This document shows positions 3,533 to 62,481 of a stretch of DNA of 64,000 nucleotides, one piece after another; position 1 is the stretch's first letter, and each line of letters begins with the position of its first letter. Source of the DNA: Paramacrobiotus metropolitanus (lineage: Eukaryota > Tardigrada > Eutardigrada > Parachela > Macrobiotidae); assembly GCF_019649055.1 (NCBI RefSeq), contig NW_026570351.1:248001-312000 (forward strand), read 5' to 3'. The notes under the pieces are model-generated. The model searched no databases, was not told the origin of the DNA, and saw only the letters and a list, made by a program, of their open reading frames with translations. Both the position numbers and the translations under genes were made by a program.

Positions 3533-3778
3533 GCGCATATTTATAACATACACCTGACTCTAAATCCCACCTCCTACGAGCTGGCAGTAAGTGTTAGTTG
3601 GGCGCAGTTGGGCGCATATTTATAACACACACCTGACTCCAAATGCCACCTCCTACGAGCTGGCAGTAACTGTTGGTTGGGCGCAGTTGGGCGCATATTT
3701 ATAACACACACCTGACTCTAAATGCCACCTCCTACGAGCTGGCAGTAACTGTTGGTTGGGCGTAGTTGGGAGCATATT
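3533..3778. repeat. 79-bp tandem repeat array, right block
   Basis: Units start at 3533, 3612, 3691 and 3770 with the same 79-bp period and sequence as the left block. The last unit is truncated and has GAGCAT in place of GCGCAT. Confidence 0.85.
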
Positions 3779-8187: not shown

Positions 8188-9166
8188 ATACTAAGCAATA
8201 ATTTTTCAGCCGGCAGACACCCACGGCACGGCGGGCTCAATAACATTGTATGCCGCGCCCTTGTTTCTGCCGGCTTCCCCGCTAAACTGGAACCACGCGG
8301 CACTTCACATACGAGCGAACGACGCCCAGACGGCTGCACAACGTTTGCATGGCAGAGGGGTATGTGCTTGGCATGGGATGTCACTTGTGTCGATACGGTT
8401 GCTGCTTCCCATATAAGGTCTACATCGTCGACTCCCGGATCGGCGGCGGTACAGGCAGAAGAAAGGAAAGCCAGTTTGTACTCGTACCTGAGTGGGCGCT
8501 ACATTTTCGCAGCCATTGTTTTTGAAACAATGGGCCCATGGGGACCGTCAGCTACTGCTATTATCAAGGAAATCGGGAAGCGTTTACGTAATCAAACTGG
8601 AGAGGCTCGCTCCCATGAATTTCTTCGACAGCGACTGTCCCTGGAGATTCAGCGGGGAAATGCGGCTTCAGTTTTCGGAACAATGGACGGAGTTGAAAAG
8701 TTTACTGAGCTCTTTCTGTTGTGATAATAAATTCTTCTTTCACCGTTTGGTTAACTAATAAATGTTTTTTGATTTGTATGCTGCAGTCGTTTACAAATAA
8801 AGTACATTTTAGCAATAATCCGGGAGCGACTATGTACTTCCGTAGGAACAAGTATTGCTGCCTCTTTAATCCAATTCACAACACAGTACGCAACACAAGG
8901 AAATCGTAATTAGAAAGCAGTCTCAGAAGTGAATCTCAGACTACTGATTAGCGACTGCTACCGATATTAGCGGCAACCAAAACTTATCTAGACTCTGCGT
9001 TATGACATCATATACACCGCTAGTAAAAGAGGACAGCAAATCACAGTAGAGATTGACTAGATTATCTGTTATGTTGCAGGCGGAAGGCGGACAGTCAGCA
9101 TCCGTACGTACATCCCGGCGTGTATCCTACTCCCACACGTCAGTAGTATGGATTTTACGCGGTTGT
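7902..9166. repeat. inverted repeat around a retroelement fragment
   Basis: ACAACCGCGTAAAATCCATA at 7902 reappears as its reverse complement near 9145-9166. The two 23-bp arms lie 1.2 kb apart and bracket the retroelement fragment at 8188-8724. They could be ends of a decayed DNA transposon; outside the arms similarity fades quickly. Confidence 0.35.
8188..8724 (+). pseudogene. fragment of RLE-type non-LTR retrotransposon, C-terminal domain
   Basis: This is the same C-terminal domain as in the 2.0-3.5 kb element, on the other strand. The open frame begins upstream of its first ATG (8362), at or before 8200, and includes LEPRG, then RRPDG and, after the usual gap, LAWDVTCVDT. It ends with EIQRGNAASVFGTM and TGA at 8722-8724. 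The reverse-transcriptase part and the zinc knuckle are gone. Within its length the frame is intact, so it is either young or short enough to have escaped stops. It differs too much from the first copy to be a recent duplicate of it. Confidence 0.75.
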
Positions 9167-42146: not shown

Positions 42147-45100
42147 ATGGAGAATATGGAGGATTCTGATGATGTTGTTGAATGTCGACAAAATGGAGCT
42201 CGTGATTGTGGCGCAACAGTTGCAGATGCAGAAAACCAAATGGCCTTGGATTTTTCATACATAGGTAGACGGAACGAGGGAGTTCACTTTGGCCAAGTCC
42301 ACCACACCCCAGCTGCAGTCAGTTCCTGTGGTCCCGCAACTTTGCCGAACCCCTGCAGCGTCGCTTCAGGTAATTAATTTTGAAAACAGCTATGATTAAC
42401 GTCTTCGGAAGAGAACACTTCTTTAATTTACGATGCCGAACCATGTAGTATGATGTGTTTTTCCCGATTACTGGTTCTGGTTTTACAATACTCGTGTAAA
42501 CAATAACGTTCAATATTGGGATGCATTATTAATGGATAATGACAATCGTTGCCCGGGAATGCCTTTCATTAAATCGTACAATCACATAGTTATTGTTTAA
42601 AAATTCTCGGTAATGGAAGATTGATGTACATGCAGGTCAACCGGAGTTTCTCCGTTCCCCTTTATCGTCCGTCCACCAGATGACGCCGATGGATGTGCGT
42701 GACTACCGGACGATGGTGGCCGATTTGGAGAAGCGGCTTATGGACCGGGAGCAGTTGCTGCGCGAGGACGAGAAGAACGAGGCGTTGGATGAGGTGACTA
42801 AGGCGCAGAGTGGCTCAGTGAATCAACTGAGACATCTGCTAACACTGTACGAAGGGTACCACGAGTATCCGGAGTCTATGATGGCGTGTGTGCGGACGAA
42901 ATACCGGGAGGTCAGTTCACACGGAAAAAGAGGGAGATGACGATAAGATCTTCGAGAAAAAATATTTCATTTTTCATATTAATTATTCAAATTCAGTTTA
43001 CTGTCAAAATTTTAATTTTTATAATTATCGTTTAACGTCGAAAATTGTTACCAAATGAGATATTATGTTTCTTGTTTGCAGTTGGAACATGAGAAATGCG
43101 CGTTGGAGGCGTCCTTGCAGTCGCGCATCGCCGTTCTCGAAGCGGAGATCTCCTCCTTGCACGCTACTCACAGCGAACTTAGGACCCAAATCGAACAACT
43201 GACCACGAACAGTCAGGATGAGGTCGTTGTTCTGCGGCGGAAACTGGCGGAAACAGAGTCCCTGCTGATGGCAGCGCTAGACTGCGATAGGTCCGACGAT
43301 GAATCGGGTGTCGTTGAAGAATCCGGGGATATTCTGGAAGACGGCATTAATGTGCGGAAAGTCGTCGTGAGGTTGGTGCGCGCACTGAAGGAGATCCAGG
43401 CGATGCGGAAAGAGATTGGTGCGCGGAAGGATCAGGTCAGCGAGATAAATGTGGAGATTGCCGAGTTCCGCGAGAAGCTGGATGCCAGTAGCATCCAACG
43501 CGACAAGTAAGCTGTTTAATCTTTTAAATTTTGGTTAAAAGCCGCCGATTTCCAGCGTGTTGGATTTTGAGTCCTGCTTTTTAAATAGCCTTGCTTCATA
43601 AAGCAGTTTCACAACGTTTCTTTGTTCTTATTAATGGTATAAGTGTACTTTTGTGGCTAGTGGTTAATTTATGTTTGTTATTGCTAAGGCTATTTGCAGC
43701 TGCAGACGAGAAATCAAAGGTGCAACCATGGGAGGCGTTTAATATTAATAAAACAGAAAAGTTGAACATTCACGATAGCATGTACTTACTACTTAGTTGA
43801 CCCGGAAATTGTTCTGATTTATTTTGTAGGTTGTTTTGCACCGATTGTTTGGACGGCTCAGCCCACCGGGAGGATTTTGCCGTTGTGGAAGTTTCTGGGG
43901 GAGACCAGTGTGGCACATCAATCGGCGCCTCTGCCACAAAGGGAGAGAAGCGACGTAACAAAAACACATTCGCAAAGCGCCAGAAAGTGAAGGATGTCGT
44001 GGTTGTGGAAGTCCGTGGAGGAGATGGAGTACTGCAATGTGGCACCGTAGCTGAAGGCGGAGGTACCGAAGGCGGTGTATTCGTGGATTTTCGTTGCACA
44101 GGCAGAAGAAACGAATGGGTTCCTTTGGACGAAGTCTTTTTATCCCGCGACGATCGCGCTGTGCCCAAATTGTGTCCTATTTCTTCCAACAATAACGGTA
44201 AATCTAACAGGAGCGAAACGCATAGCTTCTTCGATATTATATCTTTCCAGGCTTGCATAATAATTATAATAATTAATGTGTATGTGACACTGCATAGCAT
44301 ACAACGAACAAACGGGAAAGCGTTTTCGCAACGGTGTTTTGTAAAAAGTAAACGGAAAATTGTAACAGAGCGTGCTGGTTGCAGGGATTCAGGATTCCGT
44401 GGAGGTGCTGATGCAGCACAATCCTTCGGAGCCGTGGAAATGGCAACCCGCCACCGCTTTGTACGACTGGATCTTTTGGCACTTTGGCATGGTCGTCATT
44501 CCCTTGCCTGGAGGAGAAATTAGAAGCATAATTCCAAAAGACCGGATCAGGAGTCCAAGTGCTGGGAAGCTCCGTGGACTGGAAGAGGAGGTGGAACTTG
44601 ACTTCGTGCGAAGAATGATGCGGTTTTACGTAAGCAGCGGTGTATTACACTGAACCCGGTGTACTACATTGAACCCGGACCGTGAATTATCCTAGACTGT
44701 CCGAACTATCTTTTGACATGCAAAAATTAACTTTCTCTTCTTATTTATAATTCAAAAAATAATATTGCAGAGTAAATCCGTGCTGCGCCCACTGGAAGCC
44801 GAAAACGGAAAGGCAACCACGAAAGGGCAAAAACGTCGACGCTGCAACGAATCCGTGGCCATCGTTAAACGCTTGAGAACGGCCCGGAGCCGCAGTGGCT
44901 CCTTGTCCTCGCTTCACGAACTGGTTGGTCCCGAGGATGACGGACTCCGATTCCTGCCTGTGGAGATCCTTATGGAGACCTTTCAGTTCCTGCACAGCAT
45001 TGATCAAGGTCGGCTGTTGGCGGTGTGCAGCGGGTGGTACGGCATACTCACCTCGGTCCTCGTCAAACGTCTGCTGCAAATCCATTTTCCATCCAAAGTT

Positions 45101-45950
45101 GATTTTAGTCGTGCTCGCTCACATTCCACAGGAAGCGCTTGTGTCGCGGATACAAATGCACAAAGCTGTTGGAGCAATCGCTCTGCGGTTATTGTTGGCG
45201 TTTCAGTAAATGGTGCGCTGGCACTGGAGGATTGGCCCATTTGTGACGGGTTCCTCCTGCGCGAGATCCTGCAGCTAGGAAACAAGGAGGTTTTGGAAAA
45301 TCTTGTCCTGAAGAACATTACTTGCTGGTTTCAGCCGAGCCATACCGAAGATTACATTCCCGCGCTTTTTAATGTATTTAACTCGCTAGCGATGATGTGT
45401 CGTACGTTAAGCGTGATGAACTTCATTTGCGAGATTCGTCGATCATGGATCGATGCGTCTGTGCCGATCACGATCCGCATCCCGTTCGGTCGGATGCGTA
45501 GCGATCGCCGCGTCACTGTTGCCGACTGGTGGGACATGATTGAGCAAAGCTGTCCACTGCTGGATGACCACCAAATGAATCTGCTCTCCACTAGGATGAA
45601 CGAGGTGAAACAAGACTGGAAGCTTGGTGGTCCATGGCTAACGGTAAAAGTATGGTATCATTATCTAAAGAGTCCACTAATACAGTAGCACTAAGCTCAG
45701 CTAGCTGCGCTGCTGCATAGTTGTATCGTCATAAACCTTGAACAGTTCACCTTCTGATTTGCAGATTACCAGAAGTCGACAGGCTGGTGACCCTCGGACG
45801 AGTTCCACCTATTTCAAGCCGTTCCCAGCTACATCCATTTATCCGCTTGAGTTTGTTGACGTACATCGGCTGACACGAATGACACAATACCTCATGTTTT
45901 GTGCAATCACTGACTCTACGATCAATCTCGAGTTGGCTTTGCCAGCTTAA
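42147..45950 (+). CDS. F-box protein with duplicated N-terminal domain and coiled coil
   Basis: Seven exons join with matching phases: 42147-42369, 42636-42910, 43082-43506, 43830-44197, 44385-44629, 44771-45643 and 45765-45950, in total 864 codons plus TAA. The start ATG has an in-frame TAA six bases upstream. Exon 1 carries a short domain with DVVECRQNGARDCGATV and IGRRNEGVHF. Exon 4 carries a longer, better kept copy (VVVVEVRGGDGVLQCGTVA, then FVDFRCTGRRNEWVPLDEVF). Exons 2-3 encode a charged coiled coil (about residues 75-305). Exon 5 has SEPWKWQPATALYDW and EIRSIIPKDRIR. Exon 6 has the F-box, about residues 573-615 (FLPVEILMETFQFL..LLAVCSGWYGIL), followed by a helical C-terminal region. 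F-box proteins bind Skp1 and bring substrates to a cullin ubiquitin ligase; that role is inferred. The architecture matches, from memory, tardigrade multi-copy F-box proteins. Confidence 0.85.
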
Positions 45951-46596
45951 TGGACCAACTTCGTTTGTGAATTTTCCGTGGGAATTCGGTAAAAGGCTTT
46001 TTGTGGACTAAACCATTTTTTTAAAAATATGGACATACGTTTTTCCGGTTTATAAGCTCACCGGTTTTTAAGTGATAAAATTTGACAGGACGCAAGTTTA
46101 ATATGTAGCTACGTTTATTTGTTCCTGACCTGTCTTTCTCTAAAATTGTACAGTACTCTGATGCTGCATAACTCTTGTACCAGTGACCAAGCTAATGAAA
46201 TTGATGATTGTTTACAATTTAAAATTTAATTGAGAAATACGAACAATAAAATGGATTTGTGCTTAGCAAGAGCATACGGTTGCGGGAAATTTAACAGGCT
46301 CTATTAATGTAGATTTATTGCTCTTATCAACCATTACCTGGCGACGAAGCAACTTACACGGTGATCTTTCATATTCTGGCCTAGAGATGTTCTTACGATT
46401 CACGATGTTTATGTTTCTGTAGCATCATTTCATGGTTTTGTTAAGCAGCGTTTCCTGCGAAACCAAGACTTAGTACCTATTTCAGCTTCATTGTCAATTA
46501 CTAAATTATTGCTTATTCAGAACATAAAATAGTTTTTGTAAGGTGAAGGTACTAACTAGATTTGCGTATTCCTCTCGCATTAAGTCTGCCCAGACA
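45951..46596. other. intergenic between the two large plus-strand genes
   Basis: Holds the 3' end of the F-box gene (an AATAAA near 46245) and the presumed 5' region of the next gene. The frame of the next gene is open back to a TAA at 46525-46527, and its first in-frame ATG is at 46597. Confidence 0.4.
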
Positions 46597-47190
46597 ATGC
46601 CACTCACGATCGACAAAGTCAACGACTTCAGCAAACTTCTACGAGATCACAATAAAAAAGTGCAGGGCTTCCTAAAACAGGACGAGATCGCGTACAATGC
46701 AACTGGAAAACTGAAAAAAAAGAATAGGGCGTGCCAGATACATCACGTACAAGGAAGTTTCACCTGCTTGTCCGTGTATGAAAAATCTCATCCGACCAGT
46801 GTTTTACTGTACGCATTTTCCGAAAAAATTCTTGCGATAAAAGATCTAAGAAAACAGATCTGGTGGTGTTATGGATCTGACAAGGATGAGAAACTTGAGG
46901 TTACAACTTATTGGAGGAACGAACAGGTTGGCGAAGAGTTTGGGGTCCTCTCTCTGGTTCTTGCTGCCGAGTTGGTGGTAAACGACAAGTCTTTGGGAAA
47001 AAGCAGTAAAAACATGTACGACGTTAACCATGTGTCAATTTGGATCGACAGCTGCTTATTTGCAAAGAAAATATTGCCGATGAATCCATCAATGTTTACC
47101 GCGGATGATATGGGCTGCAATGTTCTTACAGTCACGTTGCCCCGACAAGACGTTCCGGGATTGCCCCCATTAGCGTCAGCACAACCTAAA
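46597..47190 (+). other. exon 1: degenerate Ulp1-like peptidase domain 1
   Basis: The pattern follows C48-type (Ulp1/SENP) domains of transposon-linked proteins: a CQIHH strand, then VLLYAF where active members have a YDS strand, then KQIWWCYG (the Q..Y helix), then EEFGVLSLVLAAELV where active members have DCG(L/V)FAIAFA. The catalytic Asp is Ala73, the Cys is Phe115, and no catalytic His is apparent. The fold assignment rests on pattern order and needs a profile search. An inactive domain could still bind SUMO or ubiquitin; that is inference. Confidence 0.55.
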
Positions 47191-50100
47191 GTGAGTTTTA
47201 AGATTAAGAATTAATTTTTAAATTTCAACAGACACCAATAGTCACTCACTCTGAGGAGTCAGTCCTTGTCATGATATGCCAACAACTCGTAAGCTATGAG
47301 TGATCAAGGAAACAAAATTCTGATCGCTAATACTGTTTACGCATCTTTCGATCCTCTTAAAAAGGCCAAAGGGTACGAAGATCGGGTAATTTTGCTCGAT
47401 GTGTTCGAGCGAGTGGCACAATAGCTTATTACCCTTGCGGTGGCCACCTGCCCTGCCCTTGCAAATTTGGATAAATTTGCGAGGTGACTTTGAAATCAGC
47501 AGCTCCAACCGCTCCACCGGTACCGGAATGAGCGCGAAGGTCTCAGGAAAGATATTGTCAAGATCAAAATTTTCCTTCCATGTGCGATCCTTTCAGGCTA
47601 TGCTAGTTAAGTGATCATGTCGGTTTTTCAATGAATAATTTTGTGATTCATTTTCTGCCTTTTTTCGAAATCCACGGGGTTTCGATATCTTTTTCATTTT
47701 CTGCTCATCCCGATGAGCGTGCCTCCCACCCGTTGTCACCTTTGCAAACGGTAGTGCGCATCAGATCGGCCTCGCTGCCTACCGTGCCAACCTTTCCCAC
47801 ACCAACAGCCGGCAGATCTGGTTAACCAGCCCATCAGAACTGTAGCCAGACAGGCGGTTGGTAAAGTACACGGCTGGTATATCCTATATATTAATTCTCT
47901 AAGTGGTCAAAAGGGTTACATCGGTGGTTGTACCGTCGTATCACTGGATCGTTATATCGGTCACGACGGTCAGACTAAAATTTAGCAAAGCTTTGAATGT
48001 ATCTGAACCAGTAGAAGTAATACAGGTACGAAAATCCCGGTAATTATAGAGCTGTATCTTATTTGTAGTTCTTGGCAACTGACCGGCAGTTGCTGCTGAA
48101 TGATCTGGGAGAAGCTTAAAAGTTTGTTTTAAAATTGCAAATAAAAGGGCATGTTCCTGGAAAATTTCAAATTTTCGGGTCTAATTTAAGGTTATTACTG
48201 AAGTCAGCGGAACAGGACAATGTTTTTTTTTCAAAACGACCTTAAATATTTAATTGGTAAACTAATACAGGCTAACTGCTACTAATCTATCAGTGAACTA
48301 TGGCCAAAATTAATTAATGGTAATTATGACATCCCCGTGATAAAACTGAGCTTCAGAGAGGTCTTATAATTTCTTATTTCTTGGATTTTCAGAGAACGGA
48401 CAGTTTTTCCAAAATGATCCGTATTGGAGTAACCCGAAGCAACTCCACCCTCAGCAGGGCAAGCAGTGTCAGCGGCAGAACCATGGCACCATCTTCCGCC
48501 CTACCCGCGAAACTATCCCCGGCACTATCCACGGAAGTAGCAGAACAAAAAACACAAACAACAGAACCGAACGCGCCCCACACTGAACACCCAACCGAAC
48601 CGGCATCGTCCCAAATAGGAGAGCAGAACATGTCGCCACACATTATTCCGCACATCGAAGTCTATCCCGACAATTTATCTGACAACATGACTCTTTCTAA
48701 TACCGGAATAAGCCCAGGCCCCAGTCCCAAGGAAGTCCCTACGTTTGAAGAAATAGCACTAAAGGAATGGACTGGGATGATAAGGGAATGGAAAAACGAC
48801 CCCGGATGGCCATCACTCAAGAATTTACGGGAAGCTGTAAATGTCTGGTGCGAGAGAGCAAATCAAAGGGCCAAGGAGCTGGGACCTACAGCTCCAGATA
48901 AGGGTAAGTTACTATAGAAATGCACCGGTGTTGGCCGGCATTATAAGACCAACACGAAGCGGAAAACTGATTTGCGTCGCCAAGCTGAAAACTGAATTTA
49001 TCGAAATTACAAGACATAGATTATTCATTTTTATTTTCTTCGTAGTCACTTCAAGTTAATAGATAATAAATACTTTAAATTAAAAACCCCCATAAATAAT
49101 AACGCCTTATATGTTGATTGGCACGCGTTAACCCAATGGAGCACTGCACAGGCACGATCAGCGAATTTTAGCGATTTTGCGCAGCGATCGCGGCTCGAAG
49201 AAACCACAGAAACAGCGAACGCAAGGGTAACGCTTGTAACCGGCAGCTAGGTGGATTGGTGAATTATGGGAGTTGAAAGAAATCACAACCACCTTCCTGC
49301 CGAAATTTGGCAGATTGGTGGATGAGTCGCCCAGCTTTCTGACGGATAACATCCGCCTTCCAGCTGAAGTCAAGCACAATGGTGAACGACTCATTCACAA
49401 ATCTGCCGGAATTCGGCAGGAAGGTGGATGTGATTTCGTTCAACGTCCATCATACACCCGTCCTTCCTGCCGGTAACAGACGCATCGTTTTCGTGGGCCA
49501 TTTATTTGCCCGTTTGGCTGATGGGTGGCGTAGAGCTGCAGCGTACGGCATCTGCCATTCGGATGTCAATGTCAGCGCGGAAAACAGTTTGTTCATTTTA
49601 GTCCGGAAGTGCAGATCCTCAGCTGCACAGCCTGCACATTATTATTATATGTAGCCGACATTATTAGAGCATTACTACAGCCTACAGGTGATACATTGCT
49701 GCAGAACTTGAACCTTAATTATTATTTTCAATCAACCGCGAAAATATTACTAGTATTTAAAGCCCATGTTGCACAAAAATTCCCAGAAAAGTCAAACGTC
49801 AGAAAATATTTCGGTGTTAAAATTGGAAATAACCGGTTCAGAGCCCAACACTAACCTACTAGTTCAGAGCCCAACTAGTACCGACATTTAATTGTGATAT
49901 TATAAAAAAAAACAACCAGCCATCAGCGCATCTATGCTGCCGATCCGGGAAAACCAAACATACGGAAAACTCCAGAAAATCACACAGCAAAATATGAAGT
50001 CAGTAGAGTACATAGGGCTTTATCAATGATACAACGTAAGCACGTCCGGACAAAATGGCAGTTAGCAATTCTGAGCTCTCGCAAATGGGAAAATTATTTA

Positions 50101-53100
50101 TGTATGCTACTGTACAGTATGTACAAGGTGTGTTGGGTTTCTAAAATTAATAATGAGTTCTAATAGTGCTGGGCTTATACTGTAGTATGGCTGGCTTCGA
50201 AATTAACGTCTTTTTAAACTTTTCTTCCACCAAACCGAAGTAACAATAACGAATACATTGACACGCGAGTTCCTTTACTCTTGCTATTGGTAAGCATTTT
50301 TCCATTTGTTGTAGATCGTCTGGCGGGGTTGAAGTCGCTTGATTCGTCATATATCCCGCTTGATCTTGATCCAACGGCAACTTTCTGTTGTCAGATCCAC
50401 AATATAACCCGAACTGATTTCGTATATTCCCTATGGGATAAGGAGAAGAGCCAAGGAAGTAAACCGGTTATAAAACTGTACGATCCTTGTGCTTCACTGC
50501 GCGATTTCAAGCTGACAGACAGAATAAAGGAGCAGCTGTGGAACTGCTATGGTGGAAATAATGCTGCGATTACCATTATTCGCATGCCTTTGCAAGCCGT
50601 GCCTAGTGATACAACTTCCACCAGCTACTACAGTGCCGTTCTGGCAATGGCCTGCGCTGCAGATACAGTTTTCATAAAACCGAAAGATCCTTGTCTGACC
50701 AATTATAACGCACCGGGACTGCAAGGCTGGGTTGGCACTTGTCTTCGTGATTTGTGTGGACCATCGACATCAGCACTAGCGTCACCCAAGAAATCCAATC
50801 CCAAGAGTGGCCCAACCCCGTATGATATTACTAAAACAGAAGTCACAGAAATTAAAAAAAGGGCAGAAGAACGCTACGATGTAAGTACTATGCTGAAACT
50901 ACTGCCTCATAATACCTGAAAATAACGCGATAACGTGAGACTGTACATCGTCAAGCGCTTTTGAGCAATCTTAGTTTCCTGAACCGCTGTGCGGGCAGAT
51001 AACGTATTTCATGGTACTTATTTACAATCTAAGACTAAATGGTCGCGCACTCTCATACCCACCATTCCGTACTTATTTACAATCTAAGACTAAACGGTCA
51101 CGCACTCTCATATCCATTTGCCGCTTGCGACAAGTGCACTGTGCCAGACTGCCGGTGTGCGCGACTGTTTAGTCTTAGATTGTATAATATCAGTTATACT
51201 TGACCAGCAGCTGAATCAACTGTTACGGTCCAGGTTAACGCGCAGAATCTAAACCGTCCTAAATTTGGTTATACTAGGAAAGAGCAGCGCTTTAATCAGA
51301 ACGAAGCGACTTGCAAAATTTTTCGCAAATATTGCAAAATTTTTCGGTAGCAGAGCAGGTTGCCCAATCTACTAGTACTTTTCGATTCTGAATTTACATC
51401 CCTTACACTTATCGTACCATTGGATGGCGAAACTTTCACTTATAGAATTAGGGAGCCGTAACTTGATCGGTACTAGCAAATCGAATTAACGTACTGTTGC
51501 TCATTAACATGAGAACTGGTAACTAATTTTCAAAAGCCGACAAAATCTGCGCTCCGGTTGACCAAACCAATCGGATTTTCCAATAATTTTCTAATTTGAT
51601 AATATTTACGATGTATCCGCTACTTCCTGTGCAGATGATTTGGTATTCCAGTTTCTCAAAGAATACCACTGTACCATATTAGAGACTATTGGAATCGTTT
51701 ACACAGCTTTAATGTTAAGGTATAAAGGTAGCGGACGCAACCAACGACGGCTGAGCTATAAAACTAATCAACAGTCTTATTACACATGTAAAAAAACAAG
51801 ATTTCTACCAAAACCGAACGTCCTAAGTTTCGAACGAAGTGTGGAACTGGACAATTGGTTATGTATAACTGCAAAATCTCATCAGTTTCGTGAATTTGAC
51901 TGAAGTGAAGTGGTAATTGCTTTAATCGGCATTTAAAGTCATTTAACAAGTGGGCTTAAAATAGTTCAACCTTGTTATGATCAGATTTACATTGGTGTCT
52001 TTCAGCTGTTTGAGTACTTTCAAAATCCACTTCCTCTCTCGGCTTCTGGTACGCCACCTCCACATGACGATGTGATGCAGCATATAAGAACAACTGAGGA
52101 AAGGGGTCCGAAGGTGAAAAGAGGCGACCGCACCTCTCTTGTTTCCTCAGTAGCCGATCAAAATACGTCTAAAGGTCCTAAAAAATCGGTGAAAGGTTCC
52201 AACGAGTCGGCTTCCCGTAAGTTGATACAAAAAAAGTTAGGTACAAAAACATAACTAAAGAATAACACGTTAGCGTGCATTGCAGACCAAAATAAGCGTT
52301 AAAAAATACGTCTTTTTTAAGTTCTACTGATTAAAATTTGACAGTTTATTGCCAGGTTTCATTTTTAGCTGGCATACATGCGTACCGGTAGACTCATACA
52401 AAGAAGGCAGGTTTTATTAAATTCGTGGCAGTTTTCACTGATATGCATTATTGTCGTCTTTTTATATTGAACATTTTCTAGCAAGGAGAAAGGAAACGGT
52501 GGTAAGGTCGATACAGAATACTGTATTTTGTTGTTTTGCAGATTGCTACATGGACGCGGGCAAAGGTAATAATCTGAAATAATGTAATACAGAGCGCTCT
52601 GTTTTGAACCGCACGTCTCCCTGTCAAAGTCGATAACTGACGCGGTCGTATTTGTTGAATTAAAGTATCCGTATGACAAGGTGCAAAAGGTGACAGTGGC
52701 ATCTGTCACCGGCAATGGTCACCGGCACTATCATCTTCCATTACGCTTGTCGTTTTGAAATATATGTTTTCTCCAATGTACTGCAACTTATCGTTGAATG
52801 GCAACATCATTTCTAACTGGTTCTGTATTTCCAAAAATTGCCGTATTTCGCGGCTTGCGAGACGCGTAATGGCAGATGACAATGGTAACTCCCGGTGGCA
52901 GATGCCGCTCCCGCCTCTTACACCCTGTCTGAAAACATACGCTGCGCTCCGATCCCAAAGCTGAAATTTTTAACAGAAGTACTTTATGTAGGCATAATTA
53001 TGTGGGAGAATATGTCAGTCACCACAGGAAATGATGCTCATGTTGACCAAGCATTAGAAGCTGATTACTCGTCACAGCCACCACAAAATCTTGGTTACCC

Positions 53101-56100
53101 CGCGTCTTTCCGGATATGGTTTAGGTTATACGAACGAGCCGGACTCAGCCAAAACAATATGAAGGAAGAAAGAGGGTAAATGTTTGCGCTTACTTACACT
53201 TGCAGCACCCGCTCCAGTGGTATCCGGGTGTTTAATGGGCTGAATATTCAGTTTCATGGTATCATGCTGAATCGAGCTTACTAGCATCTCTCCATCAGTA
53301 TAGTTCGAGCATTTTTTAGTTAAATCAGTTTGTGACATCACGTTGATAGTCTCGACAGTAGCAGCCGGAAGGGGCGTCATATTGTCGAGATCGGAGAGCT
53401 GCGTAGTGTGAGAGCTACGGTTTAAGGAAAATGCCCCGTTAAATTTGGGTACGCGCACGTCAGCTATCGCTTTCGCGCACTTTCCAAAAGGTTTTTGCAC
53501 TTTTATGGCGAATGTTTTATGCACGATGATATAAAAACCGTTTGTGCGGTAGAGGAGTTTTGGCTCAAAAAAAATTTCAATGCATCAGAATGTGCCAGAG
53601 GTTTCATTACGCACGGAATTTGACACCTGCGCAAAGGTATGGTCGTACTTGCACCAAACCACGGCTCGAGCAATCTTTTCAAATTTAAAAAAAAATTGAA
53701 TATTTTGAAACTGGTTTACAATTTGAACAAAATGGTGCAACTCTGCTTTAATGCACGAACAATCTTCGAACTGATATGGGATTCAGTGTGAATATTGTTT
53801 ATGTGCAAAATTTCGGGAAGATTGGTCCGTAACGAATATTTGGTGCAGCTTGTGAAGGCCGATAGCTCCACCTTCACGATTGGCTATTCGCCATTGTGTT
53901 TTGCTGTTCTGGGGATTTCCATCCCTGCATTTTTCATGGTCTGCAGCACACCTGTGCTCTCTGCAATCCAGTCTGGTGTTTGCTGCGCCACATTGCGCAT
54001 GTTTGATTTCGGCGTTAAAGCCTCATCCGGGTTCGCCGCTATTTCGCCGTCGAACGTACGTGGGCGCCCATAAGGCTCCATGTTACAAGCTGAACGCACT
54101 TAGACGTTTTTCAGGACAATCATGTATAAAGTTCAATCGGCCACATTGTTTGTGTTTTGTAATGCGCGAAAGTGAACGCCTTGACGCATGTACACGAATT
54201 TGTTACAATCTGGTACCATCTTAAAAAAATTAAAACATGTAAAGCGTTAGTGGGGGTGGGGGCGGCAGTTGTCAAAGCCGTCAGTTTTAGAATAGCCATA
54301 CCAACAAGGGTCAGAACACTATTCGTAGGTTGGAATGCGATTTAGTTGCCACTGCCTACAAAAACTTTTGATCCATTGCAGGCGACCCTGGGTGTATGTT
54401 TGCGTGACTGAGAAGATGGCTAAAATAATGGCGGAGATATCCGGACACAAGAAGGTTCTACTTTCCAGTTCACCGGGATTTGGTAAATCCACCACGGCAC
54501 TGATCGAAGCGCTCATTCGCGTAACTGAAGGACATAGCTTGCTTTGGATTCATCTGAACCGCGCGCGTGACGATCACCGTTCAATGCTTGTCAAATTTAA
54601 AGCAAACGACTTGACAGCGTTCTCTCACGCAGAAGTTTCGATCAAGGACATAGAAACTGTCTTGGTAAACGAACTTCGGGATAGTAAACCGGACATTGTT
54701 GTACTCGACGGCATTACGCAGGAAGGTCACGCCGACGGTCCTTACTCACAATTCATGGGATCCATAAGTCAATATTGCCGGCAATCTCACGAAAGCGGAA
54801 ATTCCAAAGTTCGCTATAGGTTTGTAACATCTTCTCCGGGATATCTATCGTACAATTCCAGCGGGATCCATCGTATTGAAATGTGGGCACCGCATTTAAA
54901 AGAATACTACACAGCAGTGGAAAACCCGCATTTCTTGGCATTTGTCTGGGACGACCTGGTAAAAGATTTTGCATACAGTGAACCAAACGATTTACAGGCT
55001 GCCTACTACACTTCTTTGTTCGACCAATATGAAGATCAAGATTTTGATCAGACAGCGGATCTTGATGGCATCAATCTGCTGCCTACTTCAAAGAATGCTA
55101 AGAAATTAATTTTCTGCAAGTTTGAATACGCTGGCATGTCCTGGCGCTATATGTTCTTTACAACACTGGAAAAAATCAAAACGGATATCAGAGCGGCCGT
55201 GGAAAATATAAGCACAAAGCAATGCGAAGAATACCTCCTCAATCCGCCCGGGCATTACAACACAGCAACAAAGCATTCGCTGTTCTGCCGCACTGACGAA
55301 ACAGACTCTGGAACTCTTGTCAGTTCCTACGCTAAGCAACTGATGAGTTACAAAGCCGGACCAGCCGCTCTGAAAAATATTAAGAAACTCCTGGGCCGAG
55401 ACATGAAACCTAGTACAGTGAACTTTGTTTGTATAATTGCAATACATTTTGGAGGTGTAAACTATAAGCGCAGTTTGAATGGGGGAAATTATTTAGGAAT
55501 TTGAGACCCCCTAGCAGATGAGGATTTCTCTTTAGCCACGCTTATGATCTATAATTTACAGATATTTCGTTATAGGAAGTTATCTTTTTTGGTTACGTTT
55601 TGCCCGAAACCAACGAAGTATAACTGAAAGTTTGAAACGATTTTAAAGTTATTCAAAAGCTTAGTTCAGTTATTTTTGGTACGTCGTAGCGCCTTTATGC
55701 AGTTTTCATACTTATGGTTAGAAGTTAGAACTTTGCGCCAGCATGCAAGATGTGCTACCGCCATCGGTTGGCTGATGTACTAATACAGAAGCGTCGATCT
55801 TCTTACAGGTGTGCTGCCATCCGCGGTTTGACTGCTAAATTAAGGGCATTAACGATTGGCTTGCCAAGTCAACCGTGAATTAAAGCACGATTTATGAGAA
55901 CTGCATAAATGCGCAAAACCGAAGCTCTTGGTTTACTACTATTATAAAACCTATGACAAGATAACTGCTGATCGACTCAGTTGTCATATGTGACCGGCTG
56001 GTCATGGCCCTAAGAGCCAGGCGATTTAAATGACGAGGGTGTTGTTCTGATCTCCCTCACAGCACACCGACAATGCGCTAACCACTATTCTGCTGACCGA

Positions 56101-57790
56101 CAACCTGCAGGAGTCTTTTTGTTGACATGAGAAACCCAAGACCTATGAAAACTAAGAAACAAATGAAAGCTAAGAGCAAACAACAAGAATCGAAGAAAAC
56201 TTGAAAATCAACGTTTCAAATCGAGCAGCAAGTTGTCCGTCAACAAAAATGTTTCGACAAACTTTCGTGTGTGAAGTTGTGAACACTTTCGTAGAAAAGC
56301 GAATTGTCGGTCAGCGAACTGTAAGTCGGCGAATTGGCGTACTACCCAGTCTCACAGTGCGGTATTCAGGTCTGCCGTTAAATTTTAAGCGTGCCCAGTC
56401 ATGTCCAGCCGGATTTATCACAACAAACAGCCGGTCAAACAGTTCAGTCTTCTGTTTCCGCCTTTAAAAAAATAACTGAAACCTTTTTATTGGTTTCAGC
56501 TATGAAAGGTGATTTCTTCGAACTGATGTTTTTTGCCACAATCAAGAGCTACTCCATTGCCGTCCGGCTAAGAGGGGCCGATGAAAAAGTCAAAGAGAAT
56601 TGGGACAGAACTTGGAGGGGACCGATCTATGAAGCACAATGTCATTCAGGGATGTTCGATGGCATTTTTGTGCCGGGTGGCCACGAAGACCAGTGGGACG
56701 CTGCGACAAAGTCCAGCCCGTTCTGGATTAGGCCAACAATGCCGAACAATCCAGGGTTTGATGCTGTTTTCATCAATTACCCGGAAGGATTGGTTCGGTT
56801 CGTCCAGGTGACGCGAGCAAAAAAACACTCGTTTGAAGGAGGTCACTACCTGTCCTTCGGCCGGAAACTTGCGGAGAGGTTCAAGAAGGCTGACAGATAC
56901 ATAAAGAAAGCTGAAATTTGCTATTTACTGAACAATGACGCTGCAATCAAAAATATGCCAACCAACACCGATTTAAGAGATACCCGGAGTGGGCAAATAG
57001 CACAGAATTATCCATTCCCATTGAATAAGAATACGAACGAGCCAATTGTGGAAATAGCACCATACGTGCTGCGCCTTGACCCGGAGCCACTGGATAGAAA
57101 CGAGCAAATTCGACAAAGCTTCCACAGGAAAACATGTACGCATAAGCACGATACGCTACATTTTAAAAACATGATTAAGTCGTATTTCATAATACTGGCC
57201 ATTTTATAATTAGTGTCTTTCCACACTGATGCATTGTTATTTCGTTCGCAGCAAGCACGGTGATTTCGGATGTAAGCGAACAAGCAGTCAAAAGACTGGC
57301 TGTGGACAAAATTAAAGTACATTTCGTTCAGAATGGCTTCCTCGACGCTCTGATGAGATGTAGCCGACTAAAAGGATACGACACCAAAGGCGACCGATGG
57401 TCCAATTTTTCTTCCCACGTCTACCGCCTTTTGCATAATCCAGAGGTTGTCGGATTACTTGAACAAAAGGGAATCGGAAACTCTGAAAGGACGCCACATG
57501 AAATATGCACCTGGTGGCTAACGAAAGAACGGATCATGGAAGATTATGAGACCATGGCAGTTGTTGCTAGTCACGTGTTGGCCCTTGACATAACTATTCA
57601 TGTTCCACAAAAAGACCAACTCCTTTACAAAAAAACATTTTATTACGATAGTGAAACTAATCCATCAGAAGAGAGCCTGCATATTTTTTGCGACGAAAAG
57701 ACAGACAGCTATGGAGCCGTGATACACCCCGAAGACGTCCCCATGGAGCCTCCCGCCGTGGAGCCTATGGAGGACGAAGAAGAAACGTGA
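46597..57790 (+). CDS. multidomain Crinkler/RHS-type NTPase-nuclease with pseudopeptidase domains
   Basis: Eight exons join with consistent phases: 46597-47190, 48393-48903, 50315-50880, 52006-52216, 52977-53175, 54382-55454, 56500-57135 and 57252-57790; 4,329 bases, 1,442 codons plus TGA. Domains in order: degenerate Ulp1-like domain 1 (residues about 45-165), Ser/Thr/Pro-rich linker, degenerate Ulp1-like domain 2 (about 393-530), second linker, P-loop NTPase (about 705-1050), restriction-endonuclease-like domain (about 1053-1260), OTU-like domain (about 1284-1425) and an acidic tail. NTPase plus nuclease is the core of Crinkler-RHS effectors, known from oomycetes, chytrids, kinetoplastids and scattered other eukaryotes. 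Every donor is GT and every acceptor AG; the weakest is the exon 7 donor (ACAT/GTACGC). Frames are intact, so the gene is probably active. Two adjacent genes instead of one cannot be excluded, though the phases favour one. The cellular role is unknown. Confidence 0.75.
47191..48392 (+). other. intron 1 of the multidomain gene
   Basis: Two short coding-like frames lie here: from an ATG near 47296, a 42-codon frame with NKILIANTVYASFDPLKK, and a frame ending at 47825 with PTVPTFPTPTAGRSG. Neither has splice sites that keep the gene in frame, so I leave them as intron, possibly relics of lost exons. Confidence 0.4.
48393..48903 (+). other. exon 2: disordered linker with a short helical end
   Basis: A stretch rich in Ser, Thr, Pro and Glu (SNSTLSRASSVSGRT; TTEPNAPHTEHPTEPASS), which looks disordered and likely to be modified. 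It is followed by a compact charged segment with Trp (EWTGMIREWKNDPGWP..NVWCERANQRAKEL) that looks helical and might be a short interaction module. Confidence 0.6.
49272..49443. mobile_element. palindromic MITE in intron 2
   Basis: The left arm (AAATCACAACCACCTTCCTG..GGCAGATT, 49272-49328) is the reverse complement of the right arm (AATCTGCC..CAGGAAGGTGGATGTGATTT, 49387-49443), about 57 bp each, with a loop of about 58 bp. The target duplication is unclear. Confidence 0.65.
50315..50880 (+). other. exon 3: degenerate Ulp1-like peptidase domain 2
   Basis: This aligns by eye with exon 1: CQIHN for CQIHH, KEQLWNCYGG for KQIWWCYGS, and AVLAMACAAD for GVLSLVLAAE. Here VIKLYDP keeps the YD strand (Asp425), while the Cys position lies in TSYYSAV (471-477) with no Cys, and the expected His is not found. 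The tail GWVGTCLRDLC fits the closing R-x-HL..C helix of the family. The two domains are an ancient internal duplication, both inactive by sequence. Confidence 0.6.
51025..51182. mobile_element. Tc1/mariner-type mini-element in intron 3
   Basis: CAATCTAAGACTAAA occurs at 51025 and 51080, each preceded by TA, and TTTAGTCTTAGATTG ends at 51182 followed by TA. The minimal element is 51080-51182 (103 bp). The doubled left end, about 55 bp apart, looks like a local duplication of the terminus. Confidence 0.7.
52006..53175 (+). other. exons 4-5: low-complexity linker to the NTPase
   Basis: Exon 4 (52006-52216) is polar and basic (RTTEERGPKVKRGDRTS; KGPKKSVKGSNESASR) with possible nuclear-localisation clusters. 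Exon 5 (52977-53175) begins VLYVGIIMWENM and ends NNMKEERG. An alternative donor for exon 5 at 53093/53094 would break the frame with exon 6, whereas the donor at 53175/53176 keeps it. Confidence 0.55.
53126..53588 (-). CDS. possible antisense exon inside intron 5
   Basis: On the minus strand the frame is open from about 53588 down to at least 53190. It reads like protein: FFEPKLLYRTNGFYIIVHK, then GKCAKAIADVRVPKFNGAF and SNYTDGEMLVSSIQHDTM. A good donor (AGT/GTAAGTAAG on the minus strand, at about 53191) could end it. Cys residues and an Asn-Tyr-Thr glycosylation site suggest an ectodomain. No partner exon was found on the minus strand nearby. It overlaps exon 5 of the sense gene only if read past the donor. 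It may be a fragment carried in by a transposon. Confidence 0.35.
53885..54075 (-). repeat. dispersed repeat in intron 5 (relative at 19.3-19.6 kb)
   Basis: The minus strand gives NPDEALTPKSNMRNVAQ, matching the 19.3-kb block in inverted orientation, including the GGGGATTTCCA flank. The members are diverged. Confidence 0.45.
54382..55454 (+). other. exon 6: Crinkler/RHS-type P-loop NTPase
   Basis: Walker A is SSPGFGKST (723-731), with Ser where the first Gly of GxxxxGK[ST] is usual; Lys729 and Ser730 are kept. LLWIHLN follows at the expected strand, and Walker B is DIVVLDGIT with Asp803. A basic/aromatic sensor-like region (RYRFVTSSPGYLSY) and a long helical C-terminal half lead straight into the nuclease exon. 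SPG.GKS with a downstream VLDG strand is the typical look of Crinkler-RHS NTPases. Confidence 0.7.
55687..56336. mobile_element. long-TIR transposon, interior plus right end, in intron 6
   Basis: Positions 55687-56154 match 13277-13743 in direct orientation at near identity. Positions 56156-56336 are the reverse complement of 13096-13276. It lies wholly in the intron between the NTPase and nuclease exons and does not touch the splice sites. Confidence 0.75.
56500..57135 (+). other. exon 7: restriction-endonuclease-like domain
   Basis: Near the start it has GDFFE (Glu1059), the conserved Glu that opens this nuclease group. The core is GFDAVFIN (Asp1139) followed by RFVQVTRAKKH (1151-1161), the D..(Q/E)-V-T..K/H strand seen in Crinkler-RHS nuclease domains. 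The usual acidic residue of ExK is Gln, as in many family members. Lys1159, Lys1160 and His1161 are present. DNA or RNA cleavage is the family prediction, not shown. Confidence 0.68.
57252..57790 (+). other. exon 8: OTU-like domain, catalytically dead, with acidic tail
   Basis: The pattern resembles OTU deubiquitinases: an N-terminal strand-turn FVQNGFLDAL where active members have DGNCLFRAL, a helical middle, TWWLTKERIMEDYETMAVVA (the W..x..E(L/I)..A helix), LALDITIHV (the I.V strand) and a last strand SYGAVI where active members have H(Y/W)..V. Asp-Cys-His read Val1289, Gly1292 and Ser1416. The end is acidic (EPMEDEEET). An OTU-like fold is a moderate call. Confidence 0.48.
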
Positions 57791-57828
57791 TTAACCGGAG
57801 AAGGCGTTCTGCGTACACCAAGGGTAAT

Positions 57829-57834
57829 AATAAA
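57829..57834 (+). terminator. poly(A) signal of the multidomain gene
   Basis: AATAAA lies 39 bases after the TGA, and a second AATAAA is at 57838-57843. Position and sequence fit the 3' end of this transcript. Confidence 0.6.
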
Positions 57835-57843
57835 ATTAATAAA

Positions 57844-59390
57844 CAGAATCTATGAAATTTTATCAGTTTTAGTGCGGCCCTGCAATTGTCCAAGTTCTGC
57901 AATATTTAATCAAACCAGACAAACTACTGTCCTTCTTGAAGAGTTTTAGAGAATGCTTAATAAAGAATGTGTACACTCGCATTTCCGCTAGCACTGCTGC
58001 GGAGAAAACAATCCGGATAGCGTATTTTTCCAAGGAATTGCTAAAGCAGCTTAGTTGTACTGATGAACTCGTAACTTCCTAAAACAATAACTAGAGGTTT
58101 TTAACCAAATCATTGGAAACCGACCGTGCGTTTGATATCACTGAAAATGGTACTGGATCTGTGAAATTCGAAAAGTACTGCACTGCCCTCTTCGAGAGTC
58201 CTGAGAGATTTATGCTTTTGACGAAGGCTTAATAGAAGAGTCGACCTTGTGTCAAAGATTTATGGTCTGCAGACCTTGGCCGCACTGGAGCCACAGCAGT
58301 TTTCAGCAAGTGCACTGAAATAAACACTAACCAAAACGATATTAATTTACATACGAGCATACTTCGAAGTATACGGATTCAGTTAAAGCAATAAATAAAA
58401 TGCCAGTGTACTAAAATTAAGGAAGCTGTTACTACGATGTAGAACCCCGGTAATCTGGCGGTAAACAATGTATAGTGCAAAGGTACAGGTAGCGCAATTG
58501 CCGCTTAAAGCGCCAAGCGGTATACCGGTAGTCAGAAATGTGCGATTACGAATATTAAAACGACAACTATAAAAGTATCAATTTTCCATATTTCTGCATA
58601 TGTATTTTTTTGACTGGCTTCGTTATCGTTTGAATAATTATATGAAAAGCAAAGAAAACATACAGTCCATGGTTTTAATGGATTATTAGGTTATTTTAAT
58701 TTTTCACTAAGTTCGGTATCTGCAATTTAATCTAAACCACCGTCACGTTTGTGAAAATTTTTATTGAGAACCATGAAGGTCACAACCTACGCTGTGGCAT
58801 GTGGCAAGCAGCTGCTGAGGGTAGATAAAAACACCCTCACTGAAGGTTTTTAGTCCGTACGGTACGCTGTTCGTCTGCGACTCGTATGGCGACGCAATAT
58901 AGCACTGGTGACCGGGAACTGTCGACTGCAAAGTCTGTGGGCGATTGGAGTGTTCGCGATGCCGTATCGCCGTTTTCCAACGGCGGCTTCTGGGAACTGT
59001 CGCCCTCCTTGTAAAACACGTACAAAGTAAGACCAAAGATGTTCCCGACAGTAAGTCCACTGTGTGACGTGGGGGACTGGGCCGTCTGTGCGTCCAGCAC
59101 AGTATGGTTGGTCTGGTTATTGGTTGTAGATTACTTCAAGACGATGCTGCGAAACCTAAAAAAACGGCGCTGGCACCCTCGGCAGAAATCTGGCCTAAAG
59201 CGTAAATATAATGCGACATCATTGGAGCGGGTGTTCCCCACGTGGCGGTAGCGGCGCTGGTTAACCCTCCAGCGGGCGGTACCCGAAGGAGTGCGAGTTT
59301 CCTTATGAAAATCAGCATTTCCCGATGGAAAAATTCAATTAAGAAAGGGAATTTTTTGTGAGCCTCTGTTGACCATAGGTCAGCGGTGGT
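57844..59390. other. gene-poor stretch with a possible minus-strand remnant
   Basis: 57.85-58.75 kb shows nothing. On the minus strand, 59318-58761 has long open frames. One reads MMSHYIYALGQISAEGASAV and then TAG; another reads LTVGNIFGLTLYVFYKEGD and continues to 58837 with two Asn-glycosylation sites. They could be relics of a membrane protein exon, but frames compete and no splice sites settle it. Confidence 0.3.
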
Positions 59391-60431
59391 TACTCTGTCG
59401 CCTGCAGAACGCCAATGCCCATGGACGGTCTACAGCATAAAAACGTTTAATTCTGCAATAATTAGGCAAACAGTTATTACGTAAAAGCAATAACTTTATT
59501 AAATAGCTAAAAAAAGTGCTTTAAAACAGCAATATAGAAGTGGTCAACACATTGACCACTGGTCAGCATAAAATTAAAAGCTGCCAAAGCCCGTTTCCAT
59601 GTGTTTGGACCACTACTACCCAATAAAATACATAAAACAAATTACGCTGACGATACTTCTTTGCCATAACGCTTATTACAGTTACATATTATGAAACGGC
59701 ATAAAGTACTCCCTATGAAGTTTGTCATTGCACTTGCTGCATTTCGACGAGTTTATGATGCTGTGTCGTCCGCGGTTGCACTTTTCCTGGGATTAGGCGC
59801 AATGGCAGTATCAAAAAGCGTTGGGGATGGTGCAGCTGCAGTGGTGATAGATTCAGATATAAGCGGTCACTATGCGCTAGCACTGTTTTTTGAAAGGCAC
59901 AAGTAGCCGCAAGTAACCCGTAAGGCTGCCCGCGCAAAGGTCAGCATCACCCATGACAATGTTCACATTACAAGTTGCAATCACTTAAATTTGCAAATGC
60001 CAGTGGCTGGTCGAAATTAAACTCATATTTTTTAAAGCTATCGGGCTCCCTCACTTTGAGAGACTCTCAAGCGATGCATCGCTAGCGTAAAAGGAAACGG
60101 GCAGAGCTCAAAGTGCTGTGCTGCCATTTTATATCGTTACCGTACATACACTGTTTCCTTGAACGTTTTATTGTCCAGAGGCAGACAACGTTTGAGACAA
60201 TTTTGCTTTTTTGCCGACCGCCCGGGGGGCTGATCAGAAAAGGGGCTTTTTGCCAGCTTACGACAATTGTGACCGTGTGGCGCACGTTTGTGTACAAACC
60301 GACAAGAGCTTGATCCGATTACGTAATAAAGCGCTACTGTCGAAATTGCACCCGCCCGTGTATTCAAAACCCTTCAACGGCGTTTAGCAGGCGACACACG
60401 TTTTTGACGGACTGTGGTCATCTTTGGTTCA
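59391..60431 (-). repeat. 1.04-kb repeat, copy B (inverted copy at 12.1-13.1 kb)
   Basis: Reverse complement of 12057-13095 at near identity, with single-base differences and a 2-bp length difference. Similarity stops at TACTCTGTCG on the left and CTTTGGTTCA on the right. Unlike copy A, this copy is not joined to the long-TIR transposon. Confidence 0.85.
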
Positions 60432-60632
60432 ACCTACAGAAACCGTGTTAACCGTTTTTAGATTCAGCTCTCTCAAATGTACCTTGTTGATTTATCTCCG
60501 GTTTAATTAATCATTCACTAATTAGTTAATTAGCAAGACCTACGGCAGCTAGGAAAGTCCAAAATTTACGATTTTCGCGGACCTGTCGTTCGTAATTAAC
60601 TTTAGACAAAAGTTTCAATTATTTTTTTACTG

Positions 60633-60931
60633 TTGCTTACTACACTAAAGGATAACGATTAACTTTTGCCGATCGCAGGAGAAAAAATCCCAAACACCTT
60701 GTCGCCTCCTGGACGCCAATGCCCGTCAACGGGTTAAGGGAAGGAAGGTTTCCGGAAAGGAGCAGCAGAATTCACGATCCGTCTCGAAGACATGGCGCCA
60801 TCCTCAGACGAGTAGAACCAGATAGCGCCTCGGTTAAAGCACGCTCACGGGATTTCCATCATGAACCTCACCCTGTCGTACACAGACTTGCCCAGCATGC
60901 GGGATTCGTTCGATACAGAAGAAGATAAATT
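60633..60931 (+). repeat. tandem duplication, unit 1 (lacks 273-bp segment)
   Basis: TTGCTTACTACACTAAAGGA to GAAGATAAATTT. The first part, 60633-60819, and the second, 60820-60931, are contiguous here. In unit 2 they are separated by 273 bases. One frame after a GATCGCAG acceptor-like site reads KKSQTPCRLLDANARQRVKG, suggesting it derives from an exon. Confidence 0.8.
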
Positions 60932-61502
60932 TTGCTTACTACACTAAAGGATAACGATTAACTTTTGCCGATCGCAGGAGAAAAAATCCCAAACACCTTG
61001 TCGCCTCCTGGACGCCAATGCCCGTCAACGGGTTAAGGGAAGGAAGGTTTCCGGAAAGGAGCAGCAGAATTCACGATCCGTCTCGAAGACATGGCGCCAT
61101 CCTCAGACGAGTAGAACCCGTGGTGCGCTATAATTGCATGGATCGGAAGCCTCACCCCTGGTTTAGTTGTGTCCGCTGCCTAAACTGAAGTTCACGCATT
61201 TCGTTTGGTATTTCGTTCATGCACTTTTTGCTCAAAATCCATAAAGTTTTTAATGCGGTCCAAATTTATGTGCTGCTTAGTTTTTTCTTCATTTACTCAG
61301 TGTTACACAAGTGGTCGAATTCTAATCTGAAATTAAAAACACGGTAAAATTTGTGTGTGTTCTTACGTAATGAAACCGTAGATCGCACACCAGATAGCGC
61401 CTCGGTTAAAGCACGCTCACGGGATTTCCATCATGAACCTCACCCTGTCGTACACAGACTTGCCCAGCATGCGGGATTCGTTCGATACAGAAGAAGATAA
61501 AT
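60932..61502 (+). repeat. tandem duplication, unit 2 (with 273-bp segment)
   Basis: Repeats unit 1 head-to-tail; the first part is 60932-61118 and the second 61392-61502. The extra 61119-61391 starts CGTGGTGCG and ends CGCACACC, a weak inverted end. The two units are near identical elsewhere, so the duplication is recent. Confidence 0.8.
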
Positions 61503-61851
61503 TTCGGACGGCTTTCGATGTGGGCGGGATTCAGAACGCCAACCCCGGAAATGAGCAGCTGCGCGCTTTAAAACGAAACTGTATGCCGCACCACCAAGCG
61601 AGCGACCGCGAAACTCCGTAATGAAACCAAATAGTAATAAGGTCAGCGGTATAAAAGACGTGATTTTGGCCGAAAACGGGGACGCTGATCTCGCTGCCCC
61701 GAAAGATTTCGGTGACGGACGTAATGGGTATGGCGAAAAACCAAGGTCGAAGGAAACCAATATCAAGTACGCGCATCTACGAGGTCAAAGTATTCCGTAT
61801 TTTCCTTCAGCCAGGTACTTAACTAATATTATTGTTGGTAACGTCATGTGA
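61433..61851 (+). CDS. two overlapping small ORFs, unrecognised
   Basis: ORF a (61433-61621) begins NLTLSYTDLPSMRDSFDTEE and goes on with GIQNANPGNEQLRALKRN. It ends in TAATG, so ORF b (61621-61851) starts one base before ORF a ends. ORF b holds IKDVILAENGDADLAAPKD and is polar. The same start of ORF a is present, truncated, in the duplicated unit at 60872. Both have protein-like composition but no domain I recognise. In an animal genome the overlap more likely reflects a frameshifted exon than a two-gene message. Confidence 0.3.
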
Positions 61852-62481
61852 AGGCACTGTACCTTATAATTATAGTTATGCGCGCTGTTCGAAAATATGT
61901 AAGTCCTTTGTAATGTAATATTTTTCGGTAGACTAAATAAGTTATGTATAAGATAGCGCCAGTTGCTAAGGTCTTGTACATACTGATACGCACCAAGCAC
62001 TTTGTCAATGGACGAAGCCAACAAGTACAGTACTACGAGCAATACATGCGTTATCTGCTGACAGATTTGTCAAATCCCGGTTCGCAACTTCGCAGTGATA
62101 ACTTATGACAACTTTTGACTGTCGGTGTTAACTACTGATTCTGATCTTTTGGGGTCCTTGACGTTAAGGTGTAAAGCAGTGTGGATTATCGCCAAATTAT
62201 GCAAGCGGAATGGCGGGCCATGTAGGTACTGAGTATTAATATGAAATTACTGTAATTACCTAATTATTGTGTGCAGATTTTTCAGCTGATTACTGCGAAA
62301 TTATTTAACCGTAATTGTGCGGATAACTGTGAAGTCACTTCCAATATTTATGCGGATTATTCCAGTTTTTAAAGTTGAAACCAGCAATCCGATTACGCGA
62401 ATAATTTTTAAATTTGCAGATTAGACCCGCATTATTCCAGAGTCGTAACCAAACCGGCTATCAGTACCCTGAAGAGTTCTA
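61852..62481. other. no gene recognised
   Basis: AT-rich intergenic DNA with short phrases of the type GCGGAT(T/A)A recurring at about 62270-62400. No coding-like frame. Confidence 0.35.

Follow-up and report, generated by a model that had tools for sequence, protein, structure and literature searches.

A tardigrade gene predicted to place two inactive Ulp1-like domains ahead of an NTPase-nuclease module

Introduction

What kind of gene joins peptidase folds that have lost their catalytic residues to an NTPase and a putative nuclease, and is it one gene at all? The question is raised by a locus at positions 46597-57790 of a 64,000-nucleotide stretch of DNA from the tardigrade Paramacrobiotus metropolitanus. 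This stretch, here called the window, is positions 248001-312000 of contig NW_026570351.1 (C131 in our numbering) of RefSeq assembly GCF_019649055.1, which holds 169.8 Mb in 533 contigs; unless a contig is named, positions are those of the window. Transposons, toxins and host genes are believed to exchange NTPase-nucleases of the Crinkler-RHS (CR) type. An initial annotation of the locus had proposed such a module, set among dead peptidase domains. The gene model, kinship within the genome and the pattern of conserved residues now point to a single animal gene in which two dead Ulp1-like domains precede an NTPase-nuclease module.

Results

A single gene model spans the locus

When splice sites were checked on the letters of the window, the eight exons of the initial annotation followed one another in phase, with GT/AG sites, through 1,442 codons and a stop. 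A protein search and mapping showed that isoform X2 of LOC129598861 (RefSeq; P0002 here) is a single 1,412-residue protein spanning the same regions. With split codons taken from the window letters, P0002 maps to ten coding blocks on the forward strand, open over 1,412 codons. The first, exon 1 (46597-47190; P0002 residues 1-198), matches Ulp1-like copies and has all four catalytic residues replaced; exon 2 (48393-48903) is a linker with no recognised domain (no Pfam match at E up to 1), exon 3 (50315-50880) is the second Ulp1-like domain, and exon 4 (52006-52216) is another linker. There follow a small coding exon of 24 nt (52542-52565), absent from the eight-exon model and encoding HCYMDAGKG with its split codons included, and the exon preceding the NTPase (52992-53175). 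The P-loop NTPase itself (54382-55412) occupies two blocks, 54382-54664 and 54722-55412, and the restriction endonuclease (REase)-like domain (56500-57135) and a last exon (57252-57790) complete the protein; we keep the eight-exon numbering, in which these three are exons 6, 7 and 8.

The joins 47190/48393, 53175/54382 and 57135/57252 are exact in RefSeq, whereas the NTPase exon ends at 55412 and not at 55454, a donor choice that makes 14 residues of the eight-exon model intronic. RefSeq also adds the 24-nt exon and begins the next one at 52992. Because this second, independent prediction agrees, the claim of one gene stands with three boundaries corrected. X2 further omits 54665-54721, a 57-nt in-frame segment with GT/AG ends. 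This segment encodes DIVVLDG, which lines up with the invariant D-G at the Walker B position and is predicted to form the Walker B strand. The X2 label, together with the two member sequences in the protein cluster, suggests that a second isoform exists.

Two Ulp1-like domains without the catalytic His and Cys

In searches of its own genome, exon 3 matched loci on contigs C19, C11, C78 and C43 (best E=2.1e-16, with 43% identity to the C19 copy) and four shorter loci. Exon 1 matched three of the same loci, on C43, C19 and C78, with E between 4.1e-6 and 4.1e-4, and the two exons match each other (24% over 58 residues, E=8.9e-4), a pair that may stem either from internal duplication or from two separate captures. 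The kinship also holds in the other direction: used as a query, the C78 copy had 47 matches genome-wide, itself included, and recovered exon 3 at E=6.0e-15 and exon 1 at E=1.6e-4. At the Ulp1 catalytic positions all four aligned first-domain relatives have H, D, Q and C. Exon 3 reads D/D/Q/T at these positions, so that Asp and Gln are kept while His has become Asp and Cys has become Thr; exon 1, where the alignment is less certain, reads F/A/R/F and keeps none of the four. The proposal of two Ulp1-like domains, both dead, is supported by matches in both directions and by the loss of the catalytic His and Cys from each exon.

What the initial annotation had overlooked is the kinship of these domains with an integrase-linked family dispersed across the same genome, whose aligned first domains carry the H-D-Q-C pattern. 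An integrase core (rve, PF00665) lies upstream of the C78 copy (E=1.4e-11) and of the C11 copy (E=7.1e-12), in both of the flanks fetched. In five of the six loci read, the Ulp1-like domain is preceded by a GDxVxFYD...LKGPA stretch, which we read as GPY/F-like; Pfam, run on two loci, did not name it. Both the C43 element (L029:2478-3338) and the C11 element (L027:2986-3411) go on to a second Ulp1-like domain. In both its His is lost; the Cys is lost in C43, and the C11 stretch ends before the Cys position. Judged by these residues, the element itself pairs an intact-looking peptidase with a dead one.

An 89-nt inverted repeat (80% complementary, with a 33-nt spacer) lies at 49253-49463, in the intron between exons 2 and 3, and is possibly a small transposon. 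No inverted repeat of at least 24 nt brackets the whole gene within 44500-62000.

A conserved NTPase-REase module

Within the same genome, exon 6 matched a locus on C15 (33% identity, E=6.0e-33) and two copies on C4 (E=5.8e-29), and exon 7 matched the C15 locus, both C4 copies and pieces on C202, C79 and C192. On C15 the NTPase and REase-like domains lie in one 677-residue RefSeq protein and, like those of the window gene, are separated by an intron. In the alignment with the paralogs, the 3′ end of the exon at 52992-53175 supplies the rest of their pre-Walker A region. A profile search added a distant relative, a 534-residue protein (P0004; 24% identity, E=2.6e-7), and in the reverse search the REase part of the C15 protein was its sole match (E=4.4e-4). 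The NTPase precedes the REase-like domain in the window, C15 and P0004, and the two stand side by side on C4.

Across the window gene, C15, C4 and P0004, the invariant features are the Walker A motif P-G-x-G-K (SPGFGKS in the window), the D-G of Walker B (VVLDG), AGxxxRxxF, GFD, QxT and a later His. The window's version of the third motif, AGMSWRYMF, belongs to an AGxSWRYMF pattern that we read as CR-like. The Glu of an FE pair is retained in every row but that of C4, in which our joined frame gives Arg. The identity of the P-loop NTPase is supported by its motifs and by the C15 and C4 paralogs. That of the REase-like domain is supported by conserved residues, the E..FD..QxT..H pattern being kept in the window gene as aligned with the paralogs and P0004, and lacks both a profile match and a usable structure model; the active-site roles of its residues are our own reading of the alignment.

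Searches of wider collections gave little. The best Pfam matches of the NTPase exon, KdpD (E=0.0017) and nSTAND3 (E=0.0025), fell short of the cut-off, and three of the four alignment members had weak nSTAND3 similarity (best E=0.0021). Against Protein Data Bank (PDB) sequences, the C15 paralog found nothing at E up to 10, and the NTPase-REase profile found weak P-loop matches only (best RadA, E=0.23). A pattern scan with the profile gave 165 and 32 pattern matches in prokaryote and viral collections, none of them confirmed; a plasmid search gave no relative of P0004, and PADLOC gave weak matches only (best E=0.0029).

Several of the related loci look damaged or rearranged. The C4 copies are two near-identical neighbours (L039 and L040; 3170500-3177500 and 3180500-3186500), one of them disrupted before the Walker A motif. 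Where the REase exon starts, the 316-residue RefSeq model on C4 and our open frame are read in different frames, so a frame break at this point is probable in the C4 copies. Near-identical ankyrin-repeat open frames stand on either side of the C15 gene (L038:493-1248 and 7760-8200); the downstream one is recognised by Ank (E=1.4e-15), and the upstream one is identified from its letters. On C192, four copies of a short REase piece with the FDAVF motif lie within 0.7 kb (L023:966-1608), and single copies are present elsewhere on C192 and on C79 (L022, L019-L021), as if borne by a local repeat. On C96 a fragment resembles exon 3 (65% over 40 residues in one search, 50% by tblastn, in a match that excludes the Cys region), and an REase fragment, picked up by a hidden Markov model (HMM) with 19 bits and E=5.2e-6 in about 10 kb, lies downstream on the same strand, with no NTPase found between the two. 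This layout hints that a pairing of Ulp1-like and REase domains was once present in another copy, now decayed.

The last exon

The initial annotation counted three pseudopeptidase domains, the third being a dead OTU fold in exon 8. The two Ulp1-like domains are supported; the OTU reading remains conjecture, since searches of Pfam, NCBIfam, the own genome and the PDB, comparison with OTU loci and AF2 gave it no support. Exon 8 has no paralog in its genome, no OTU or other family match in Pfam at E up to 1, and none in NCBIfam or in PDB sequences. Against 15 OTU loci of the same genome its best blastp match had E=0.72. An HMM was built from nine of the 15 loci (three near-duplicates and three loci without the trimming motif were left out), and of 1,000 shuffles made, 882 were reported; 725 of these 882, and 21 of 41 real segments, scored as high as exon 8. 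An hhalign comparison with ten of the 15 loci scored 21.2, above all 60 shuffles (highest 19.6), but its probability is 2.2% and its register does not bring the catalytic motif into line. The AF2 model has a pLDDT of 43.5, and in it the predicted order of strands and helices looks OTU-like to us, with low confidence; we leave the domain type unassigned.

Surroundings of the gene

Upstream on the same strand, an open frame at 44717-45688 resembles an F-box protein (F-box-like, E=2.5e-5). Near the start of the window, positions 4001-6000 show strong strand asymmetry (GC 0.31, GC skew -0.54), and next to this stretch lie 79-bp tandem arrays, one at 1693-1991 and the other at 3532-3779.

Discussion

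A model for the gene and its product

We think it about an even chance that the locus encodes a host-borne, CR-like NTPase/REase-type nuclease whose N-terminus derives from two domains akin to a transposon's Ulp1 peptidase, now non-catalytic, and whose activity would be gated by ATP and aimed by the dead Ulp1 domains. We propose that the N-terminus was assembled from two such domains and that catalysis has been lost since. The dead folds, if they still bind a ligand, would most likely work as binding modules, with SUMO, ubiquitin or a partner protein as their target, and so could place the enzyme on marked chromatin or on invaders, where ATP binding or hydrolysis by the NTPase would license the putative nuclease. 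Skipping of the Walker B segment, as in X2, may yield a form unable to hydrolyse ATP, and the gene may have a role in intragenomic conflict. A more specific version, in which dead SUMO/ubiquitin peptidases of transposon origin act as readers and direct an ATP-gated nuclease to modified chromatin or to invading DNA, and in which Walker B splicing is the off-switch of a SUMO-guided defence or selfish-drive nuclease, we consider unlikely.

Several results weigh against the proposed domain identities and their union. Searched genome-wide, the C48 peptidase profile (PF02902) had nine matches, none at the Ulp1-like loci described here; tested on single copies, it reached the C11 copy at E=0.022 only, below the cut-off, and gave no match to the C43 copy at E up to 1 or to the C78 and C19 copies at 0.01. 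The C11 copy found nothing among PDB sequences at E up to 10. Exon 7 has no REase profile match, its QxT pattern comes without the lysine of the classic ExK, and a single-sequence AF2 run on the C15 paralog gave a pLDDT of 30 and no usable model. The flanking DNA fetched for the NTPase-REase copies (9.5 kb around that on C15, 7 kb and 6 kb around those on C4) yielded no Ulp1 domain. Finally, three protein searches gave P. metropolitanus proteins and P0004, with no named ortholog; scoring in two of the three was confined to the top 7,999 or 8,000 candidates, and the word prefilter misses distant relatives.

The main rival is a selfish, Medea-like toxin, in which the NTPase-nuclease would harm cells or embryos that lack an antidote and the dead peptidase folds would aim it. 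CR-NTPase8 and CR-REase7 have been linked to Tribolium Medea1, and the REases of CifB, which are traced to CR-like elements, occur with Ulp1 or OTU domains (PMC11342252); the window gene, moreover, has few relatives in its genome, several apparently broken or fragmentary. However, the His that marks CR-REase7 is missing at both possible positions of the active-site Glu, and we hold this alternative to be rather unlikely. We favour dead Ulp1 folds acting as binding modules on an ATP-gated nuclease in intragenomic conflict.

It is quite unlikely that two neighbouring genes, a dead Ulp1 gene (exons 1-4) and an NTPase-nuclease gene (the later exons), were wrongly merged by prediction. The Ulp1-free flanks of the C15 and C4 copies are what this alternative would expect, but RefSeq joins both parts and names an X2 isoform, and the joins keep phase; the completion of the paralogs' pre-Walker A region by the exon before 54382 ties in that exon only, and not exons 1-4. 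Improbable to the same degree is a composite of transposon origin that selection constrains weakly or not at all and that is drifting towards a pseudogene: the C4 frame is probably broken, C202, C79, C192 and C96 hold fragments and the peptidase catalytic sites are lost, yet ten coding blocks stay open over 1,412 codons and the NTPase and REase residues are kept where those of the peptidases are not.

A gene uniting a CR-type NTPase-nuclease module with peptidase folds whose transposon-like family persists in this genome would mean that the assembly of such proteins has been caught in an animal. Relatives with intact catalytic residues offer a direct test of whether dead SUMO peptidases become readers. 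The gene would also be a further animal case, one that may lie near the Medea1/CifB class of embryo-killing factors.

Relation to known systems

The Crinkler/RHS label given to the gene fits the order of NTPase and REase, but neither a Crinkler header nor the RHSP family was detected. RHSP, which we take to be the Pfam RHS protein family profile, is absent from the eight Pfam families listed for the four-member alignment at E up to 10, a search in which HMMER filters may drop fast-evolving relatives. The Crinkler header profile (PF20147) had no match in the genome, and none in the 14 control genomes either. Header types other than Crinkler/Ubl exist among CR proteins (PMC5289972). The same source describes CR proteins with NTPase and REase C-termini, Ulp1-like peptidases also among the C-termini, and links to transposons (PMC5289972). 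The window gene resembles them in its P-loop NTPase followed by an REase-like domain, its Ulp1-like domains and its transposon links; it differs in carrying two dead Ulp1-like domains at the N-terminus. As for a narrower class, the hallmark of CR-REase7 is a His three residues after the active-site Glu (PMC11342252). With that Glu placed by our own reading, the residue three after the Q of QxT is R in the window gene and P0004 and V in C15 and C4, and the residue three after the E of FE is F in the window gene and C15.

Around two relatives of exon 3 (C78 and C11), the order of integrase then Ulp1 recalls Ginger1 DNA transposons, which combine a Gypsy-type integrase with a C-terminal Ulp1 domain (PMC2836005). 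Unlike Ginger1, the window gene has no integrase in its own exons, and its Ulp1-like domains are inactive only.

A CR-type module in an animal is already in print: Tribolium Medea1 is an animal-borne NTPase-REase element linked to CR-NTPase8 and CR-REase7, and as such an element the window gene is like it (PMC11342252). Wolbachia CifB, whose REases derive from CR-like elements, is similar in combining REases with Ulp1 or OTU domains and dissimilar in having four REase domains, with no NTPase described in the accessible text (PMC11342252). Since Medea1 has the NTPase with an REase and CifB has Ulp1 or OTU fused to REases, neither a CR-type module in an animal nor an REase joined to a SUMO peptidase is new singly. 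Searches of one open-access library brought up no paper on dead Ulp1 domains fused to an NTPase-REase module. Set beside Medea1 and CifB, what looks new in the tardigrade gene is this fusion with dead, transposon-type Ulp1 domains.

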